Origin: a bacterium
GTDB taxonomy: Bacteria; Blakebacterota; Blakebacteria; Blakebacterales; Blakebacteraceae
DNA: 27,568 bases
NCBI GenBank assembly: GCA_025774205.1
Contig: JALGWK010000079.1
Location: 1-27,568 of the forward strand
Reading direction: 5' to 3'
Shown here: one piece after another, positions 17,831 through 26,580 of the stretch
How positions within the stretch are numbered: position 1 is the first letter of the stretch
Layout: every line of letters starts with the position of its first letter
Made by a program: the position numbers and the translations under genes
The notes under the pieces: generated by a model
Told to the model about the DNA's origin: nothing
Database searches by the model: none
What the model saw: only the letters and a program-made list of their open reading frames with translations

Positions 17831-19210
17831 ATGTCTGATGACACGGCCGGCGGGACGATCCTCATCATCGACGATGAGAAGGGGATCCGCGATTCTCTCC
17901 AGCTCGTTCTCGAATACGAGGGATATCCCGTCCTGAAGGCGGCCACCGGTCGGGAAGGCCTCGACACAGTCGAGGGGAATGAACCGCATGTCATCCTCCT
18001 CGATGTGAAGATGCCCGGTCTCGACGGCATGGAGGTGCTCGAACGGCTCGATCCGCTGGAGAGCGGGCGGGTGGTCATCATGATCAGCGGTCACGCCGAT
18101 ATAGCCACCGCGGTAGAGGCGACCCGGATGGGTGCCTTCGACTTCCTCGAGAAACCACTCGACCAGGAGAAGGTTCTCCTCACCATCAGGAACGGCATGG
18201 CCCGGGCGCGGCTGGAGCGGCAGAACCGGCTCCTGCGCACCCAGGTGGAGGAGCGCTTCATCCTCGTGGCCGAGAGCGCCGCGATGCGGACCGTCCTCGA
18301 CCAGGTGGAACGGGTCGCGGCGAAGGAGCTGATCGCGCGCCGGATCCATGGTCTCTCCGGGCGGCGGTCCGCCCCCTTCGTGCCGGTCAACTGCGCCGCT
18401 CTGCCGGGGGGACTGATCGAAACGGAACTCTTCGGGCACGTGAAGGGGGCCTTCACCGGCGCCCACGCCAACAAGACCGGCAAGTTCGAACTCGCTGCCG
18501 GGGGCACCCTCTTCCTCGACGAGGTGGGGGACATGACCCTGCCGGCGCAGGCCAAGGTCCTGCGCGCGCTGGAAGAGGGAGTGGTGGAACAGGTCGGCGG
18601 CGACAGGGCGATCCGGGTCGACACCCGCGTGGTGGCGGCCACCAACAAGGACCTCGATGAAGAGATCGTCAGAGGTGATTTCCGACGGGACCTGCTCTAT
18701 CGGCTCCGGGTGGTCCCCCTCCACATCCCTCCGCTGCGTGACCGGAAGGGTGACATCCTCCCGCTCTGCGAGCATTTCCTGGCCTACTACTGCGCCATGG
18801 GGAAGCGGCAGCTGATTCTCCCCCCCGGCGAGGTGCGGATGAGCCTGGAGGAGTACTCCTGGCCGGGCAACGTCCGGGAGCTGCGCAACGCCATGGAACG
18901 GCTTGTCATCATGAGCCTGGGGGACACCATCACCCTCGATGATGTGACGGGCATACTCGGTTCGGTCTCGGCGGGCGCCGCCGCGGTCGATCTGCCGAAG
19001 GGGATCGAGGGGCTGGCCCGGGTGCTGGAGGAGGAACCCGGTCTCGGCCGGTTCCGGGATGAGGCGGAGAAGGTCTATCTCCTCACCGTTCTCGAGGAGC
19101 ACGGCTGGAATGTGAAGATGACCGCCGATGCCCTCGGTATCCAGCGTTCCAACCTCTATCGGAAACTTGATAAGCACGGTATCGAACGAGGCGATATATT
19201 GGAGGATTGA
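17831..19210 (+). CDS. NtrC-type sigma-54 response regulator lacking the Walker A loop
   Basis: Order: receiver domain (residues about 8-120; acidic D14/D15, phosphoacceptor D58 in LLDVKMPGLDG, S86, K108), AAA+ domain, and C-terminal Fis-type helix-turn-helix (MTADALGIQRSNLYRKLDKHGI). The sigma-54 contact loop GAFTGA, Walker B GGTLFLDEVGD, the arginine region FRRDLLYRLRV and sensor-2 WPGNVRELRN are all present. The ATP-binding loop, normally about 15 residues ending GESGTGKE, is absent: VERVA is followed at once by AKELIARRIHG (18317-18331). The lesion is in frame. ATP hydrolysis, and so open-complex formation at sigma-54 promoters, should be lost unless the gap is an assembly error. No partner histidine kinase is in the window. 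Confidence 0.9.
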   Translation: MSDDTAGGTILIIDDEKGIRDSLQLVLEYEGYPVLKAATGREGLDTVEGNEPHVILLDVKMPGLDGMEVLERLDPLESGRVVIMISGHADIATAVEATRMGAFDFLEKPLDQEKVLLTIRNGMARARLERQNRLLRTQVEERFILVAESAAMRTVLDQVERVAAKELIARRIHGLSGRRSAPFVPVNCAALPGGLIETELFGHVKGAFTGAHANKTGKFELAAGGTLFLDEVGDMTLPAQAKVLRALEEGVVEQVGGDRAIRVDTRVVAATNKDLDEEIVRGDFRRDLLYRLRVVPLHIPPLRDRKGDILPLCEHFLAYYCAMGKRQLILPPGEVRMSLEEYSWPGNVRELRNAMERLVIMSLGDTITLDDVTGILGSVSAGAAAVDLPKGIEGLARVLEEEPGLGRFRDEAEKVYLLTVLEEHGWNVKMTADALGIQRSNLYRKLDKHGIERGDILED

Positions 19211-19806: not shown

Positions 19807-20268
19807 ATGGAGAGTGAATCGCGCCAGACAGACCGGGAGGTAACCCGTACCGTTGCCGGCATCCTCGATCAGCAGCGGGCGCGGGGAGACGCCGGCCGGA
19901 CCAACCTCATCTCGGTCCTCGAAGAGATCCAGGAATCGTTCGGCCACCTCCCCAGGCGGGCGCTGTACGCCCTCGCTTCCGAGACCGGTGAATCAATCAA
20001 CCGTCTCTACGGGCTGGCCTCCTTTTTCAAGTCGTTCTCCTTCGAGCCGAAAGGGAAGCATGTCGTTTCGGTCTGTATGGGAACAGCCTGTCACGTCCGC
20101 AAATCCCCGGAGATCGTCGAGGAATTCTCCTCCCAGCTCGGGATCGAACCGACTGCGACGACCGAAGGTCAAGGGGATCCTCAAGCAGATTCAGAAAGGG
20201 ATAGCCGTCCTGGATGTCGGCAGCGACCCGCGGATCTTCCCCGTCTCGCTCGCCTGTCCCCATTGTGA
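19807..20268 (+). pseudogene. NuoE/HydC-like [2Fe-2S] subunit, C-terminal cysteine region deleted and frameshifted
   Basis: Thioredoxin-fold subunit that carries the N1a-type [2Fe-2S] cluster in Complex I and bifurcating hydrogenases. From ATG 19807 the reading is normal: LISVLEEIQESFGHLPRRAL, INRLYGLASFFKSFSFEPKG, VSVCMGTACHVRKSPEIVEE (first two cluster cysteines) and LGIEPTATTE. Right after TTE (about 20166) the frame goes out of register and reads about 34 nonsense residues to TGA 20268. In the next frame at 20162 the family's last helix appears at once (PKVKGILKQIQKG). About 40 residues, including the last two cluster cysteines normally in VNCxGxCxxAP, are gone. As written the subunit cannot hold its cluster. 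Confidence 0.88.
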
Positions 20269-21241
20269 CACCTCGATCATGGATGCCGAACATCCGATCG
20301 ACGATCATCCTTCCTGTCATTTCACCATCCGTCATGAGGGTGAGGAGAGCCACCTCTGGCTGTCGGGCCTGTGGGGAAGCCCCCACGTGGAACTCGAACG
20401 GGAGGTGCCCGACGGCGCCATCGTTGAGTTCGCCTGCCCCCACTGCCGCGAAACCCTGGAAGCCTCGATCCTCTGCCCCAGTTGTGAGGCGCCGCTCCTG
20501 GCGCTTCGCCTGACCGGGGGGGGCGCCGCGTCGATCTGTTCGCGGCGGGGCTGCCCGGAACATCTGCTCGACCTGGAGGGGACGACCGACCTGAAGAACC
20601 ACCTCGACAGCCTCACGGCCAGTGGCCGTCCGCCGGGGAAACCGACGCTGGTCCTCTGTGCCGGGACCGCGGGACAGGCCAGCGGAGCCAACGACGTCCT
20701 CAGAGTCGCCAAGCGGTACATCCTGGAGAACGGGCTCCACGACCGCATTGAACTGCGTATCACCGGCTGCCAGGGCTTCTGCGAGATGGATCCCTTCGTC
20801 GTCATCGAACCGGGGCGGAACCTCTACCCCAAGATCGGGATGGATGACGTGGGTCGGATCATCGACGCCGCCCTCGAGGGCAACGTGGTCGAGGATCTGC
20901 TCTATCGTGAGCCGGGGGAGGAGAAACTCTACGAGAACAAGGAGGAGATCCCCTTCTTCAGGGACCAGGTGCGCACCATCCTCGGACGGAACGAGGATCT
21001 CGATCCTCTGCGCATCTCCGACTACTTCCGGCAGGGGGGATACAGCTCCCTGGCCGCGGTCATCGAACGGAACGATCCGGAATGGATCGTCGACGAGGTC
21101 GTGAAGGCGGGCCTGCGGGGCTGGCCCGCGACAACGGGGACGGCAAGGGGCCGACCTACCTGGTCTGCAACGCCGATGAGGGAGATCCCGGCGCTTTCAT
21201 GGACCGCTCCATCCTCGAGGGGAACCCCCACCTGGTCATAG
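20162..21241 (+). pseudogene. 5' part of a NuoF/HydB-like gene: NuoE tail, zinc-ribbon domain and N-terminal NuoF region
   Basis: This open frame has no ordinary start near its first homologous residue. It begins with the displaced NuoE tail (PKVKGILKQIQKG) and runs in frame into a zinc-ribbon-like module with four cysteine knuckles: CPHC (20255 on), CPHC, CPSC and CSRRGC. It continues into the N-terminal ferredoxin-like region of HydB/NuoF (LVLCAGTAGQASG ... ITGCQGFCEMDPF) and the start of the flavoprotein domain (LYENKEEIPFFRDQVR, GYSSLAAVIERNDPEWIVDEVVKAGLRG). At 21119-21121 it leaves the NuoF frame; the last 40 residues are nonsense. The second cysteine expected in CxGTxC is Gly (GGA 20672-20674). 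It is unclear whether the NuoE tail, zinc ribbon and NuoF are naturally fused or joined by deletion. Confidence 0.75.
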
Positions 21242-22440
21242 AGGGGATGGTGATCGCCGCTATCGCGATCGGGGCCACCGAAGGATTCATCTTCGTCCGC
21301 ACCGAATACCCCCTGGCGCGGAAACATACGGAAGTCGCCCTCCAGCACGCCCGTAACCATGGTCTGCTCGGGAAGAACATCCTGGCGAGCGGGATCGACT
21401 TCGATATCGAGATCGTCCGCGGGGCGGGGGCCTATGTCTGCGGTGAGGAGACCGCCCTGATCGCCTCGATAGAGGGGCGTCGGGGCATGCCGCGGCCGCG
21501 GCCGCCCTATCCGGTGGAGAAGGGGCTGTGGGGCCGTCCCACCTGCATCAACAACGTCGAGACCCTGGCCAACGTCCCGATCATCATCGAGCAGGGGAGC
21601 GAAGCCTACGCCGCGATCGGCGTGGAGGGCAATTCGGGGACGAAGATCTTCTCCCTGGTCGGGAAGATCAGGAACACCGGACTGGTGGAGGTGCCCCTCG
21701 GTATCCCGATCCGCAAGGTCGTCTACGATATCGGGGGAGGACCGCTCGAGGGACAGAAGATCAAGGCCGTGCAGACCGGCGGCCCCTCCGGCGGCTGTAT
21801 CCCGGAGGAACTCTTCGACCTCCCGGTCACCTTCGACAGCCTCACCGAGGCCGGGTCGATCATGGGCTCGGGGGGGATGATCGTGATCGACGAGGAAACC
21901 TGCGTGGTCGATCTGGCCAAGTACTTCCTCACCTTCACCCAGGAGGAGAGCTGCGGCCAGTGCCCCCCCTGCCGGGTCGGCAGCCGGGCCATGCTGGTAC
22001 TGCTTGACCGGATCACGGAGGGAACGGCCACCATGGCCGACCTCGACAAACTTGAGCAGCTGGCAGGAACGGTGCGGGAGGCCTCTCTCTGCGGTCTGGG
22101 TAAGAACGCGCCGAACCCGGTGATCACGACCCTGCGCTACTTCCGGGAGGAATACGTCGAACATATCGAGAAGAAGCAGTGCCGGGCCTTCACCTGTAAG
22201 CAGCTGATCACCTACACCATCGATGAGGAACGGTGCAACGGCTGCGGAGCCTGCTTCCGGGTGTGCAACGATGATGCCATCATCGGCGAACCGAAACAGC
22301 TCCACGTGATCGATCAGGATCGCTGTGTTCACTGCGGGAACTGCTTCGTGGTCTGTCCCCCGTCCCTGGCTGCGGTAGTGCGGACCAGCGGCGAGCTGAC
22401 CCGGTACGAGGAACCGGTGGTGAAAGCGAAGAAAGGGTGA
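21082..22440 (+). CDS. 3' part of the NuoF/HydB-like NADH-binding flavoprotein with C-terminal 2x[4Fe-4S] ferredoxin domain
   Basis: NADH-oxidising FMN and iron-sulfur subunit. Genuine homology starts at 21121 (LARDNGDGKG); the codons from ATG 21082 to there are out-of-frame reading of the preceding part. Present are YLVCNADEGDPGAFMDRSIL, IVRGAGAYVCGEETALIASI, GRPTCINNVETLANVP, QTGGPSGGC, the N3-type cluster ESCGQCPPCRVGS with CGLGKNAPNPV, and a bacterial-type ferredoxin tail (CNGCGACFRVC, CVHCGNCFVVC). The loop GRGGxGFPTGxKW that binds FMN/NADH and should sit between GLRG and LARDNG is missing, together with the frame (loss of roughly 37-40 bases). Without it flavin binding is doubtful. The stop is followed one base later by the NuoG-like GTG. 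Confidence 0.9.
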   Translation: MDRRRGREGGPAGLARDNGDGKGPTYLVCNADEGDPGAFMDRSILEGNPHLVIEGMVIAAIAIGATEGFIFVRTEYPLARKHTEVALQHARNHGLLGKNILASGIDFDIEIVRGAGAYVCGEETALIASIEGRRGMPRPRPPYPVEKGLWGRPTCINNVETLANVPIIIEQGSEAYAAIGVEGNSGTKIFSLVGKIRNTGLVEVPLGIPIRKVVYDIGGGPLEGQKIKAVQTGGPSGGCIPEELFDLPVTFDSLTEAGSIMGSGGMIVIDEETCVVDLAKYFLTFTQEESCGQCPPCRVGSRAMLVLLDRITEGTATMADLDKLEQLAGTVREASLCGLGKNAPNPVITTLRYFREEYVEHIEKKQCRAFTCKQLITYTIDEERCNGCGACFRVCNDDAIIGEPKQLHVIDQDRCVHCGNCFVVCPPSLAAVVRTSGELTRYEEPVVKAKKG

Positions 22441-22441
22441 G

Positions 22442-24049
22442 GTGGGCGTGAAGATCACAGTGAACGATCAGGTGCTCGACGCGAACGAGGGCGAGAGTGT
22501 CCTCGAGGTCGCGCTTCGACACGATATCGAGATACCGCACATCTGCTACCACCCGATCCTTCCGGCCAACGGTGTCTGCCGGATGTGCCTGGTCGAGATC
22601 GACGGGATCAACGGATTGCCGGCCTCCTGCAGTACGCCGGCGGCCGACGGCATGGTCGTGCATACCGAGACCGAAACGGTAAGGAACCGCCGGCGGGAGA
22701 ACCTGGAACTGATCCTGCTCGAGCACCCCTCCTCCTGCCTGGTCTGCTACAAGCGGGAAGCCTGCCAGACCTTCCGGCCGGAGAAGGAGAAGACCGGCGT
22801 GACCACCGGCTGCCAGAACTGTCCCAACAAGCACGACTGCGAGGTCCAGCGGCTGACCCTCGACCTGGGGATCACCGACCTGCCGGTGGGGAGCTTCTAC
22901 CGCAACGCCGAATTCGATCGTGACGATCCCTTCATCGAGAACGATCCCAACCTCTGCATCCTCTGCGGACGGTGCGAACAGATCTGCCAGTACCATCACG
23001 ATACTCCGGTCGTGGTCCTCACCGGACGCGGGCCGGATGCCCGGGTCGGTCAGGCCTTCGATCTGCCGTTGAACGCGTCCGGTTGCACCTTCTGCGGCGC
23101 CTGCGTCGATCTCTGTCCTACGGGTTCGCTCTCAGACCGGTTCGCCAGGTGGTACGGGGTGGCTGACGGTCTGGTCAAAACAACCTGTCCCTTCTGTGAC
23201 GCCGGCTGCGCCCTCGAGGTGAAGTCGGAGGGGCACCGCGTATTCTCGGCCACGGCGCTCGACCAGACGAAACCGCTCTGCGCCCTCGGCCGCTTCACTA
23301 TCCCTCCCTTCCTCTCGAGTCGCGACCGTCTCACCCATCCCAGGGTCATGGCGGGAGAGCGGCTGCGCGAGGTGACCTGGGAGGAGGCGTTCACGGCTGT
23401 GGCGGATGGACTCGCGCCCTTCAAAGGCGACACCTTCGCCCTGGTCTGCGACCGGTCGGGTACCGTCGAGGACCGCCACGCCCTCAGGGTATTCACCGAA
23501 GAGGTGATGGATTCATCGCATTATATCGAGATCGAGGATGGCGAGGAGCCGCGGGTCGAACTGCCGACCGGTGTGAAAGCGGTCCTGCTGACAGGCGACT
23601 TCCTCGAGGCCGATGCGCTTGACGCCCTTGAGATGGTCGTCGTGCTCGACTGTTATCCGAGCCCGGCCGCTGAAAAGGCCACGGCCATCCTGCCCGCCGC
23701 CATCCTCCTGGAGACGAAGGGGCACCTGGTGGATGAGAACGGGGTCGAGCGTCCGGCGAAACGGGCGGTCAGACCGGCCGGCCAGGCGAAGCAGGACCAT
23801 GAGATCATCACCGGCCTGATCACCGCCATGGGCGATGAAGGAACGGCCGGGAAGCTCACCGGGGAGATCGAGACCCGGATACAGGATTCTGAAGCCGAAC
23901 TGATCACCGAACGGGCCGAAGCGCCGGCGCCGGCCCTGGACGTGACGAAGATACGGACCCGCTACCGCGGTCACCTGATCGCTGCACGGGTCCCCGACGC
24001 GGGCGCGGTCCAGCCGGTTGCGGCCCCGGTTCCCTCGGAGGTGGTGTAA
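22442..24049 (+). CDS. NuoG/HydA-like iron-sulfur protein with short molybdopterin-type domain
   Basis: Electron-wiring subunit of 535 residues. Order: plant-type [2Fe-2S] domain (KITVNDQVLDANEGESVLEV; HICYHP...GVCRMCLVE...SC), a Cys/His cluster region (EHPSSCLVC ... CQNCPNKHDC), two [4Fe-4S] sites (CILCGRCEQIC, CTFCGACVDLCPTG), then the formate dehydrogenase-like [4Fe-4S] segment CPFCDAGC ... LCALGRF. A shortened molybdopterin-oxidoreductase fold (ILPAAILLETKGHLVDENGVE) ends the protein. Too short to hold a molybdenum cofactor and no H-cluster motif is present, so it resembles NuoG rather than a hydrogenase. GTG 22442 or GTG 22448 is the start. The stop TAATG overlaps the next ATG. Confidence 0.9.
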   Translation: MGVKITVNDQVLDANEGESVLEVALRHDIEIPHICYHPILPANGVCRMCLVEIDGINGLPASCSTPAADGMVVHTETETVRNRRRENLELILLEHPSSCLVCYKREACQTFRPEKEKTGVTTGCQNCPNKHDCEVQRLTLDLGITDLPVGSFYRNAEFDRDDPFIENDPNLCILCGRCEQICQYHHDTPVVVLTGRGPDARVGQAFDLPLNASGCTFCGACVDLCPTGSLSDRFARWYGVADGLVKTTCPFCDAGCALEVKSEGHRVFSATALDQTKPLCALGRFTIPPFLSSRDRLTHPRVMAGERLREVTWEEAFTAVADGLAPFKGDTFALVCDRSGTVEDRHALRVFTEEVMDSSHYIEIEDGEEPRVELPTGVKAVLLTGDFLEADALDALEMVVVLDCYPSPAAEKATAILPAAILLETKGHLVDENGVERPAKRAVRPAGQAKQDHEIITGLITAMGDEGTAGKLTGEIETRIQDSEAELITERAEAPAPALDVTKIRTRYRGHLIAARVPDAGAVQPVAAPVPSEVV

Positions 24050-24858
24050 TGTTCAGGGTCGTGAGCAACCGCAAGGTCACCCCCAACGCCCACGAGATGG
24101 TCGTGGAGGCGCCCGAGGTAGCCCGGACGGCACAGGCGGGGCAGTTCGCCCTTCTCATGGTGGACGAACATTCGGAACGGATCCCCTATACCCTGGCCGA
24201 CTGGGACGAAGCGACGGGGACGGTGACCTTCATCGTGCTCGAGGTCGGCAAGTCGACCGGCGACTTCGTGCACCGCCAGCCCGGCGACGAGGTCGCCCAC
24301 GTGGTCGGCCCCCTGGGGATGCCGCTCGAGGTGGAGAACTTCGGCACGGTCGCCTGCATCGGCGGCTGTTACGGGCTCGGCGGGATCGTCCCGGTAGGCA
24401 GGACCATGAAAGCGGCCGGCAACCGGGTGATCACCTACGTGGAGGCCCGGATGGAGGGGATGCACTACTACCTCGACAAGTACGAATCGTTCTCCGACGA
24501 GGTGGTCCAGACCACCACCGACGGTTCCAACGGCATCAAGGGTCATGGAGTGGACATCCTCGAGGCGAGGCTGAAGGAGGGGGTCCGGGTCGACCGGGTC
24601 TTCACCATCGGCTGCCCCTTCATGATGATGCTCACCGCCCAGGTGACCAAACCGCACGAGATCAAGACCTTCGCCGCCCTCAACCCGATCATGCTCGACG
24701 GCACCGGCATGTGCGGTGCCTGCCGCTGCACGGTCGGCGAGGAGACGAAATTCGCCTGCGTGGACGGTCCCTTCTTCGACGCCCACGAAGTCGACTGGCA
24801 TGAACTGAGAGACCGCCGCGCGGCCTATATCTTCACCGAACGGGACGTGTGCAAGTGA
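24049..24858 (+). CDS. NfnA/SudB-like FAD and [2Fe-2S] reductase subunit
   Basis: Small subunit of NADH-dependent ferredoxin:NADP oxidoreductase (Nfn) or sulfide dehydrogenase, belonging to the dihydroorotate-dehydrogenase-electron-transfer type. The 269-residue protein has the flavin barrel (QAGQFALLMVDEHSERIPYT, VGKSTGDF, DEVAHVVGPLGMPLEV), the NAD-binding half (ACIGGCYGLGGIVPVGRTM, TDGSNGIKGHGVDIL, TIGCPFMMMLTAQ) and the C-terminal cluster site LDGTGMCGACRCTVG ... FACVDGPFFD. The glycine-rich strand contains a Cys (GGCYGLGG) where Nfn proteins usually have GGG. ATG overlaps the upstream stop; the stop overlaps the next GTG. Confidence 0.92.
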   Translation: MFRVVSNRKVTPNAHEMVVEAPEVARTAQAGQFALLMVDEHSERIPYTLADWDEATGTVTFIVLEVGKSTGDFVHRQPGDEVAHVVGPLGMPLEVENFGTVACIGGCYGLGGIVPVGRTMKAAGNRVITYVEARMEGMHYYLDKYESFSDEVVQTTTDGSNGIKGHGVDILEARLKEGVRVDRVFTIGCPFMMMLTAQVTKPHEIKTFAALNPIMLDGTGMCGACRCTVGEETKFACVDGPFFDAHEVDWHELRDRRAAYIFTERDVCK

Positions 24859-26471
24859 GTGAGCAGAAGAAAGAGAACAATCCGGTGGAGCAGCCCGACA
24901 GCGGCCGGGAGGCAGAGGTCAGGACAGCCGACAACGGCAGCAAGGCTGATACCGGCAAGAAGACCGACGTCGGCCGGAAGGGCGACCGCGGTAAAAGGAT
25001 CGATACCAGCAAAAAGGGCACCTCGGTCCCGCGCCAGCCGATGCCGGAACAGTTGGCTGAGGACCGGGCCCACAACTTCGACGAGGTCCCCTTCGGCTAC
25101 TCCGAAGAGGTGGCCATGATCGAGGCCGCCCGCTGCCTGGCGTGCAAGAAGCCGAAGTGCCGCGACGGCTGCCCGGTCGAGATCGACATCCCCAGCTTCC
25201 TCCACCTGATCGAGGAGGGGCAGTTCGTCGAGGCGGCGCAGAAGATCAAGGAATCGAACCCGCTGCCGGCCGTCTGCGGCCGGGTCTGTCCCCAGGAATC
25301 GCAGTGTGAGGAGCTGTGCGTCCTGGCCATCAAGCACGAATCGGTGGCCATCGGTCGCCTGGAGCGCTTCGCCGCCGACTACGAGCGGAACGCCGGATCG
25401 ATCGAGGCCCCCGCCATCCTGGAGAAGAGCGGTAAAAAGGTGGCCATCGTCGGGGCGGGACCGGCCGGACTGTGCGTGGCCGGCGACCTGATCAAGCTCG
25501 GCCACGATATCACCGTCTTCGAAGCTCTGCAGAAGCCGGGTGGGGTGCTGATGTACGGCATCCCCGAGTTCCGGCTGCCCGAGGACATCATCAATGCCGA
25601 AGTGAATCTGCTCCACGAACTGGGCGTGGAATTCCGCTACGACTACGTCGTCGGCCGCAACGCCACCATCCCGGAGCTGCTCGCGGGAGAGTACGACGCC
25701 GTCTTCATCGGCAGCGGGGCGGGTTTGCCCTCCTTCATGAGGATCCCCGGCGAGAACCTGATCGGCGTCTACTCGGCCAACGAGTACCTGACCCGGGCCA
25801 ACCTGATGAAGGCCTACCTTTTTCCGGAATACGACACGCCCCCGATCGAGGCGGACCACGTCATCACCGTCGGCGGCGGCAACGTGGCCATGGATTCGGC
25901 CCGCACCGCCCTCAGGCTGGGCGCCCGATCCACCATCGTCTACCGTCGCGCCCGGGAGCAGATGCCGGCCCGTGACGAGGAGATCCACCACGCCGAGGAA
26001 GAGGGGATCGCCTTCAACCTGCTCACCAACCCGACCCGGATCCTCGGGAACGCGAAGCGGGAAGTGGTGGGGATGGAAGTCCTCCAGATGAAGCTGGGAG
26101 AACCTGATGATTCCGGGCGCCGCAGCCCGGTCCCGATCGAGGGATCGGAGTACGAGATCGAGTGCGACGCGGTGGTGGTCGCCATCGGCAACAAGCCGAA
26201 TCCGCTCATCCCGCAGACCATGAAGGACCTGGAGCTCACCCGCTGGGGCACCGTTGTCACCGAGGAGCACACCATGCAGACCTCGGTTCCGGGCGTCTAT
26301 GCCGGCGGTGACATCGTCTCGGGCGCGGCGACCGTGATATCGGCCATGGGGCAGGGGAAGATCGCCGCCAGGGCGATGGATCACTACCTCAGGACAGGGA
26401 AGAACCCCGATCCGCCGCCCCCCCCGGAGGAGAAGCCGAAGAAGAAGCCGAAGAAGAAGAAAACAGAGTAG
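24849..26471 (+). CDS. NfnB/SudA-like NADPH-binding FAD subunit (GltD family) with charged tails
   Basis: Large Nfn subunit, related to the glutamate synthase small chain. GTG 24855 overlaps the upstream stop and is the preferred start; 24849 is the longest frame. Residues 1 to about 58 are an unusual Lys/Asp/Gly-rich extension. The normal protein follows: MPEQLAEDRAHNFDEVPFGY, [4Fe-4S] sites CLACKKPKCRDGCPVEIDIP and CGRVCPQESQCEELC, FAD motif VAIVGAGPAGLCVAGDL, PGGVLMYGIPEFRLP, NADP motif VGGGNVAMDSARTALRLGA and VYAGGDIVSGAATVISAMGQ. It ends in five prolines and a Lys-rich tip (EEKPKKKPKKKKTE). The catalytic body is intact. Last gene of the cluster. Confidence 0.95.
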   Translation: MQVSEQKKENNPVEQPDSGREAEVRTADNGSKADTGKKTDVGRKGDRGKRIDTSKKGTSVPRQPMPEQLAEDRAHNFDEVPFGYSEEVAMIEAARCLACKKPKCRDGCPVEIDIPSFLHLIEEGQFVEAAQKIKESNPLPAVCGRVCPQESQCEELCVLAIKHESVAIGRLERFAADYERNAGSIEAPAILEKSGKKVAIVGAGPAGLCVAGDLIKLGHDITVFEALQKPGGVLMYGIPEFRLPEDIINAEVNLLHELGVEFRYDYVVGRNATIPELLAGEYDAVFIGSGAGLPSFMRIPGENLIGVYSANEYLTRANLMKAYLFPEYDTPPIEADHVITVGGGNVAMDSARTALRLGARSTIVYRRAREQMPARDEEIHHAEEEGIAFNLLTNPTRILGNAKREVVGMEVLQMKLGEPDDSGRRSPVPIEGSEYEIECDAVVVAIGNKPNPLIPQTMKDLELTRWGTVVTEEHTMQTSVPGVYAGGDIVSGAATVISAMGQGKIAARAMDHYLRTGKNPDPPPPPEEKPKKKPKKKKTE

Positions 26472-26514: not shown

Positions 26515-26552
26515 TGCGGTCCGGTCAGGGATCAGCCATCGTTATGAACAGG

Positions 26553-26580
26553 AACCCCGCCTTCGAGCGGGGTTTTTCTT
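26553..26580 (+). terminator. Intrinsic terminator of the redox cluster
   Basis: AACCCCGC (26553-26560), loop CTTCGA, GCGGGGTT (26567-26574) form a perfect 8-bp stem followed by TTTCTTT. The remaining bases up to the next start at 26679 hold no recognisable gene; a TAGTAT at 26594-26599 is a weak -10 candidate without a matching -35. Confidence 0.92.

Follow-up and report, generated by a model that had tools for sequence, protein, structure and literature searches.

A conserved bfuCBA-nfnAB operon as a candidate hydrogenase-free bifurcating transhydrogenase with a remodelled NfnA

Introduction

Do five adjoining redox genes in a bacterium of the Blakebacteraceae encode one enzyme or two? The genes occupy positions 19807-26471 of a contig of 27,568 nucleotides (GenBank JALGWK010000079.1, our contig C270, from assembly GCA_025774205.1), which is referred to here as the window. 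On the + strand, Pfam and NCBI family profiles identified them, in order, as NuoE-like, NuoF-like, NuoG-like, NfnA/SudB-like, and NfnB/SudA-like. Judged by its domains, the NuoEFG-like part falls within the established Bfu family (BfuABC), whose Nfn-type member is Stn; we follow the definition of that family and its BfuABC core by Schut et al. (2022, PMC9304861) and refer to the operon as bfuCBA-nfnAB. A first-pass annotation, made from the sequence alone, had proposed that the Nuo-like and Nfn-like modules may form one larger complex. The assembly comprises 3.09 Mb in 527 contigs and is 86% complete; the main intact reference was a genome of the same genus (G001; locus L013 = L022, JALGVQ01, Meg19_1012_Bin_119), which has the same neighborhood with all five operon genes intact.

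Results and Discussion

Linkage and distribution of the operon

To assess the spread of the operon, a BfuA profile was searched against 386 genomes from across the bacterial domain, 132 genomes of one phylum, and several small phyla. Among the 386 genomes, 13 clear family members were found, own genome included, and these were set apart by score from the next group (421 versus 358 bits), whose matches began only at model position 122, as expected for formate dehydrogenase-like proteins. The 132 genomes of the single phylum yielded 25 family members, and others came from 4/4 and 3/4 genomes of two small phyla, with one from a further small phylum; a BfuA scan of genome contigs returned the sister genome and one distant match only. 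Wherever sequence continues past bfuA (37 loci), nfnA lies directly 3′ of it, nfnB comes next in all 33 where it is visible, and the order bfuC-bfuB-bfuA-nfnA-nfnB holds in every uncut locus, spanning at least 17 families and at least five phyla. The order is beyond chance, as the identical five genes recur in the same order in dozens of other genomes, which is the conserved co-occurrence that the first-pass annotation had set as its test. Neither Nuo-like and Nfn-like genes in unlinked operons nor a hydrogenase or formate dehydrogenase gene always accompanying the set, either of which it had named as counting against the proposal, was found.

The association goes beyond adjacency. BfuA and NfnA form a single open reading frame in two genomes from two families (G257, 834 amino acids; G209, 849 amino acids), and the operon NfnA is the sole NfnA of its genome in 12 of the 14 carriers tested; a second NfnA with ordinary residues accompanies the operon copy in G246. 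Conversely, none of 41 loci examined around standalone NfnA genes (30 with 1.5-kb flanks and 11 with wide flanks) contained a BfuA.

A cysteine pair specific to operon NfnA proteins

The operon NfnA proteins retain the a-FAD (flavin adenine dinucleotide) strand (ERIPYT in the window) and the [2Fe-2S] ligands (DGTGMCGACRx10CV in the window; canonical form DGTGMCGxCRx10CV), and have changed in the NAD(H)-binding half. There, the third glycine of GGGxG and the proline of GPxxMM are both replaced by cysteine in 37/38 operon NfnAs, including that of the window (GGCYG and GCPFMM), whereas glycine and proline are kept in 81/81 standalone NfnAs and the cysteine pair occurs in none (0/81). A third replacement, Gly132 to Glu, accompanies the pair in 36/38 operon NfnAs. 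Because the cysteines separate operon from standalone proteins so sharply, NAD(H) handling at the operon NfnA is probably altered. Since the homologous loops of plant-type ferredoxin-NADP reductases border the site for nicotinamide and pyrophosphate next to the flavin, the two cysteines should lie near each other.

With the two trait columns left out of the alignment, the tree placed the Cys-Cys NfnAs in one clade (Shimodaira-Hasegawa-like approximate likelihood ratio test, 99), so that these counts do not represent independent events. The lone exception to the cysteine pair, an NfnA with ordinary NAD loops in genome G350, was sister to that clade, which suggests that linkage preceded the cysteine change. 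Its locus (L063, 564-6377) encodes BfuB, a BfuA of another type whose C-terminal GltD domain is degenerate, and then NfnA and NfnB, and possibly represents a stage between Nfn-Bfu and the present operon.

Cofactor motifs of BfuC, BfuB, BfuA, and NfnB

The cluster ligands of BfuC (C92, C97, C133, and C137) were present in 27/27 intact copies, and BfuC-zinc-ribbon proteins of similar kind were found in other Bfu loci. BfuB contains the domains by which the Bfu family is defined (PF01512, PF10589, and a C-terminal Fer4), with an SLBB match slightly under the cut-off (24.5 bits against 27); its ligands B1, B3, and B4, together with H543, C549, and C554, are conserved across the family, and the best solved homologs of the window protein are 9n5u_B, 9bov_B, and 7t2r_B. 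BfuA likewise has the 4Fe-4S ferredoxin and 2Fe-2S domains expected of its family (Fer4 and Fer2_4; the Molybdop_Fe4S4 match is weak), and 22 cysteines and one histidine are invariant among 33 family members. It carries two C-x2-C-x5-C motifs, as opposed to one each in the NuoG and the FeFe-hydrogenase BfuA from the same genome. The second (about 101-127) falls where a GltD domain, inserted at 102-565, interrupts StnC (PMC10482914); no GltD domain was found in BfuA of the window or of its family.

The first-pass annotation had seen no H-cluster, molybdenum site, or membrane subunit, and the Pfam scan agreed: the Molybdopterin match of BfuA spans only 71 residues, leaving no Mo site, and no H-cluster domain (Fe_hyd_lg_C or other Fe_hyd) was matched. 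A formate dehydrogenase and an FeFe hydrogenase were ruled out by these absences, and an ordinary complex I N-module by the extra ferredoxin domain of BfuB and the lack of adjoining membrane subunits. An [FeFe]-hydrogenase-like protein that looks to be of a sensory type (Fe_hyd_lg_C with FeS) does adjoin the operon in G036 (L020, 5186-8953), where HATPase, DRTGG, and PHP genes are also nearby, and in G246 (L058, 1493-2818); no Fe_hyd_lg_C protein lies beside the operon in the window or G001.

By sequence, NfnB is canonical and nearly indistinguishable from standalone NfnB. In the window, both [4Fe-4S] ligand sets, the b-FAD arginine, and the NADP(H) site are conserved, and the protein scores 513 bits to Thermotoga maritima NfnB (4ylf_B) versus 344 bits to the GltD part of Stn-type enzymes.

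Proposed enzyme and competing explanations

The perfect linkage across 37 loci, the BfuA-NfnA fusion, the single NfnA in most carriers, and the one NfnA clade all argue that the five genes build one enzyme. To this extent the genomic evidence bears out the earlier proposal of a larger complex; its frame has shifted to the Bfu family, and the complex itself stays a prediction. We give an even chance to the reading that the operon encodes a five-subunit, cytoplasmic, hydrogenase-free bifurcating transhydrogenase, Stn-like and keeping a remodelled NfnA. In such an enzyme, BfuB and BfuC would form the bifurcating core, with NAD(H) at the flavin mononucleotide (FMN) and ferredoxin at the C-terminal clusters, and BfuA would serve as an iron-sulfur wire. 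NfnB would bind NADP(H) at its FAD as the third-substrate module, perhaps also serving ferredoxin besides BfuB, and NfnA would connect NfnB and BfuA; its FAD pocket would no longer be an ordinary NAD(H) site, and it would pass electrons inside the complex, possibly through the cysteine pair. The net reaction would be the one known from Nfn and Stn, coupling NADH plus reduced ferredoxin reversibly to 2 NADP+. More tentatively, and with the balance tipping against it, the NAD pocket of NfnA may have become a cysteine-pair site beside the flavin, in which case a new relay, flavin-dithiol or flavin-cluster, would link two bifurcating modules within one particle, and a fourth substrate might be involved.

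Several points weigh against the five-subunit enzyme. Its support is genomic; the two fusions may be one event, since the NfnAs of G257 and G209 are sisters in the tree; and the NfnB tree failed to recover the operon copies as one clade, leaving a single origin of operon NfnB unsupported. The change of Gly132 to Glu, where strand 2 ends, could nonetheless favor NAD(H) ribose binding. AlphaFold models from two-sequence alignments were too weak (mean predicted local distance difference test scores of 48 for NfnA and 37 for BfuA). Moreover, the potential of the [2Fe-2S] cluster in Pyrococcus furiosus NfnA, about +80 mV (PMC6405883), is too high for electrons to be passed on to BfuBC, and a route in series through NfnA would therefore require a retuned potential; alternatively, electrons might pass from NfnB directly to BfuA via the extra cluster, or the a-FAD might serve another acceptor such as a disulfide.

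The last of these leads to the explanation that survives best among the alternatives, although we consider it unlikely, namely that the two cysteines make up a new site, catalytic or metal-binding, in the form of either a redox-active disulfide or a bound cluster next to the a-FAD. NfnAB would then bifurcate electrons from NADPH to ferredoxin and, in place of NAD+, to a thiol/disulfide or polysulfide acceptor, while the Bfu module would balance NADH and ferredoxin. Both cysteines always co-occur and are fixed even among proteins as little as 42% identical, the [2Fe-2S] and FAD motifs of NfnA are retained, and P. furiosus NfnI was originally described as a sulfide dehydrogenase (PMC6405883); however, the neighborhood offers no substrate candidate and the BfuA-NfnA fusion points to an internal role. 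It is less probable again that BfuABC, with an unspecified third substrate, and NfnAB are two separate enzymes, co-transcribed as both serve redox balance. The near-identity of NfnB to its standalone counterparts and the scatter of the operon copies in the NfnB tree would fit, yet the modules were never separated in 37 loci from at least five phyla, BfuA and NfnA are fused in two genomes, NfnA is altered only in the operon setting, and no other third-substrate gene adjoins BfuA. The least probable is a split Stn in which NfnB feeds BfuA directly through its clusters, as the placement of the extra C-x2-C-x5-C where GltD joins NuoG in StnC and the ability of Stn to work without any NfnA (PMC10482914) would allow, since NfnA, there a structural remnant without a redox role, still conserves its FAD and [2Fe-2S] ligands and has two new residues that are fixed rather than drifting.

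The window copy

The first-pass annotation described five consecutive coupled genes closed by a terminator. The order, terminator, and tight coupling hold (Table 1): TAATG at 24047-24051 is common to the bfuA stop and the nfnA start, and nfnA and nfnB overlap by 10 bases. The genes do not encode five intact proteins, as bfuC and bfuB are broken. Compared with G001, bfuC lacks 104 bp, including two of the four cluster cysteines, which breaks the reading frame; 53 bp are missing at the bfuC/bfuB junction, at about 20582; and 40 bp are missing from bfuB at 21121, the FMN glycine loop. In G001, BfuC has 308 amino acids and ends in the zinc ribbon, and bfuB is a separate gene, so the zinc-ribbon/NuoF-like gene previously annotated here is a product of the 53-bp loss, which fused the BfuC C-terminus to bfuB. 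The sigma-54 response regulator upstream (17831-19210) also lacks 42 bp in frame at 18322, covering the Walker A motif. Because these four losses, three of them in essential motifs, are clustered in some 3 kb of coding sequence whose conservation is otherwise good, they suggest an assembly artefact, a recurring fault of the contig; alternatively, they may reflect genuine recent decay. A programmed frameshift was ruled out, as the breaks are deletions of 104, 53, and 40 bp and relatives carry intact copies.

Table 1. Positions of operon features in the window.
Feature	Position	Strand	Evidence
bfuC (NuoE-like), thioredoxin-like [2Fe-2S] part	19807..20163	+	PF01257 9.8e-24; 66% identity to intact G001 BfuC residues 3-121
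Rest of bfuC, C-terminal zinc-ribbon-like domain, two CxxC pairs	20164..20614	+	67% identity to G001 BfuC 152-301; domain match 20207-20587
bfuB (NuoF/HydB-like), N-terminal thioredoxin-like domain and start of FMN domain, frame 2	20585..21121	+	77% identity to G001 BfuB 4-182
bfuB remainder: FMN/NAD domain, SLBB, NADH_4Fe-4S, two C-terminal [4Fe-4S]	21100..22440	+	PF01512, PF10589, Fer4; 86% identity to G001 BfuB 189-633
bfuA (NuoG-like, 535 amino acids): Fer2, His-Cys3 motif, Fer4 pair, Fdh-type 4Fe-4S, truncated Mo-fold remnant	22442..24049	+	Pfam; 66% identity to G001
BfuA double C-x2-C-x5-C motif (H95 C99 C102 C108 ... C124 C127 C133)	22724..22840	+	
nfnA (SudB-like, 269 amino acids)	24049..24858	+	NF004862, 324 bits (cut-off 220)
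NfnA Cys107 codon (GGGxG to GGCYG)	24367..24369	+	
NfnA Cys189 codon (GPxxMM to GCPFMM)	24613..24615	+	
nfnB (SudA/GltD-like, 540 amino acids)	24849..26471	+	TIGR01316, 595 bits (cut-off 471.75)
Intrinsic terminator closing the operon	26550-26577	+	z = -2.9

Related clusters

Other Bfu arrangements were encountered in the same and other genomes. A further cluster, consisting of bfuC, bfuB, a short BfuA, and a protein of ∼530 amino acids with a glutamate-synthase FMN-type domain (PF01645, 42 bits), is present in two copies in the own genome (L016, 3024-7857; L017, 57-4837) and has relatives at L194, L196, and L197. BfuB and a GltD/NfnB-like domain are joined in one polypeptide in the own genome (L018, 124-3162, on G000:C53) and in three others, at L061 (7570-10728), L195 (5031-9230), and L196 (5805-9044); similar BfuB domain additions have been described for Hydrogenedentota (PMC11406978). 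The BfuC-type zinc-ribbon domain also occurs in a protein of ∼290-300 amino acids encoded directly upstream of standalone nfnA in G132 and G179 (L191, 3476-7047; L192, 2443-5946) and in G032, and in G132 additionally on an N-terminal extension of NfnB.

Relation to known enzymes and significance

The closest known systems are the Stn or Nfn-Bfu enzymes (Sporomusa ovata StnABC; Thermococcus sibiricus Nfn-Bfu; Bfu Type 1, BfuB clade 53), which share with the operon the BfuBC core, the BfuA wire, a GltD-type NADP(H) module, and the lack of a hydrogenase, a likeness that extends to 9n5u and 9bov as best solved BfuB homologs. In Stn, however, GltD is located inside StnC and an NfnA homolog is lacking (PMC10482914), whereas the operon has a separate canonical NfnB and a remodelled NfnA. 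With NfnAB (P. furiosus NfnI, T. maritima, and Clostridium kluyveri) it shares both [4Fe-4S] motifs, the b-FAD arginine, and the NADP site of NfnB, as well as the a-FAD strand and Asp-Cys3 [2Fe-2S] site of NfnA, but differs in its constant linkage to bfuCBA and in the GGC[YF]G and GC[TP] that replace GGGxG and GPxxMM. FeFe-HydABC, NiFe-HydABCSL, Fdh-Bfu, and Bam-Bfu have the same BfuABC core; unlike these, the operon has no H-cluster, NiFe, Mo/W, or HdrA part, and its accessory module is NfnAB. Bam-Bfu has likewise been proposed to join two bifurcating modules (PMC9304861).

Thus, the Bfu family, Nfn, and Stn are already known, and what appears to be new, from the sequences compared, is the bfuCBA-nfnAB operon with its NfnA cysteine pair, of which no description was found in the open-access full-text literature searched. 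Stn has been stated to lack NfnA, and Nfn to lack HydBC (PMC10482914); in acetogens, the presence of one nearly excludes that of the other (PMC7483475). They have been described as different solutions to the same reaction; a widespread operon with both and a modified NfnA could link them and offer a test of how two bifurcating modules couple. The combination of GGC[YF]G and GC[TP] in NfnA is a simple marker with which to find such enzymes in sequence data and to avoid mislabelling them as ordinary NfnAB or complex I. If the cysteine-pair relay is real, it would place the enzyme in a transhydrogenase class of its own, separate from Nfn as well as Stn.

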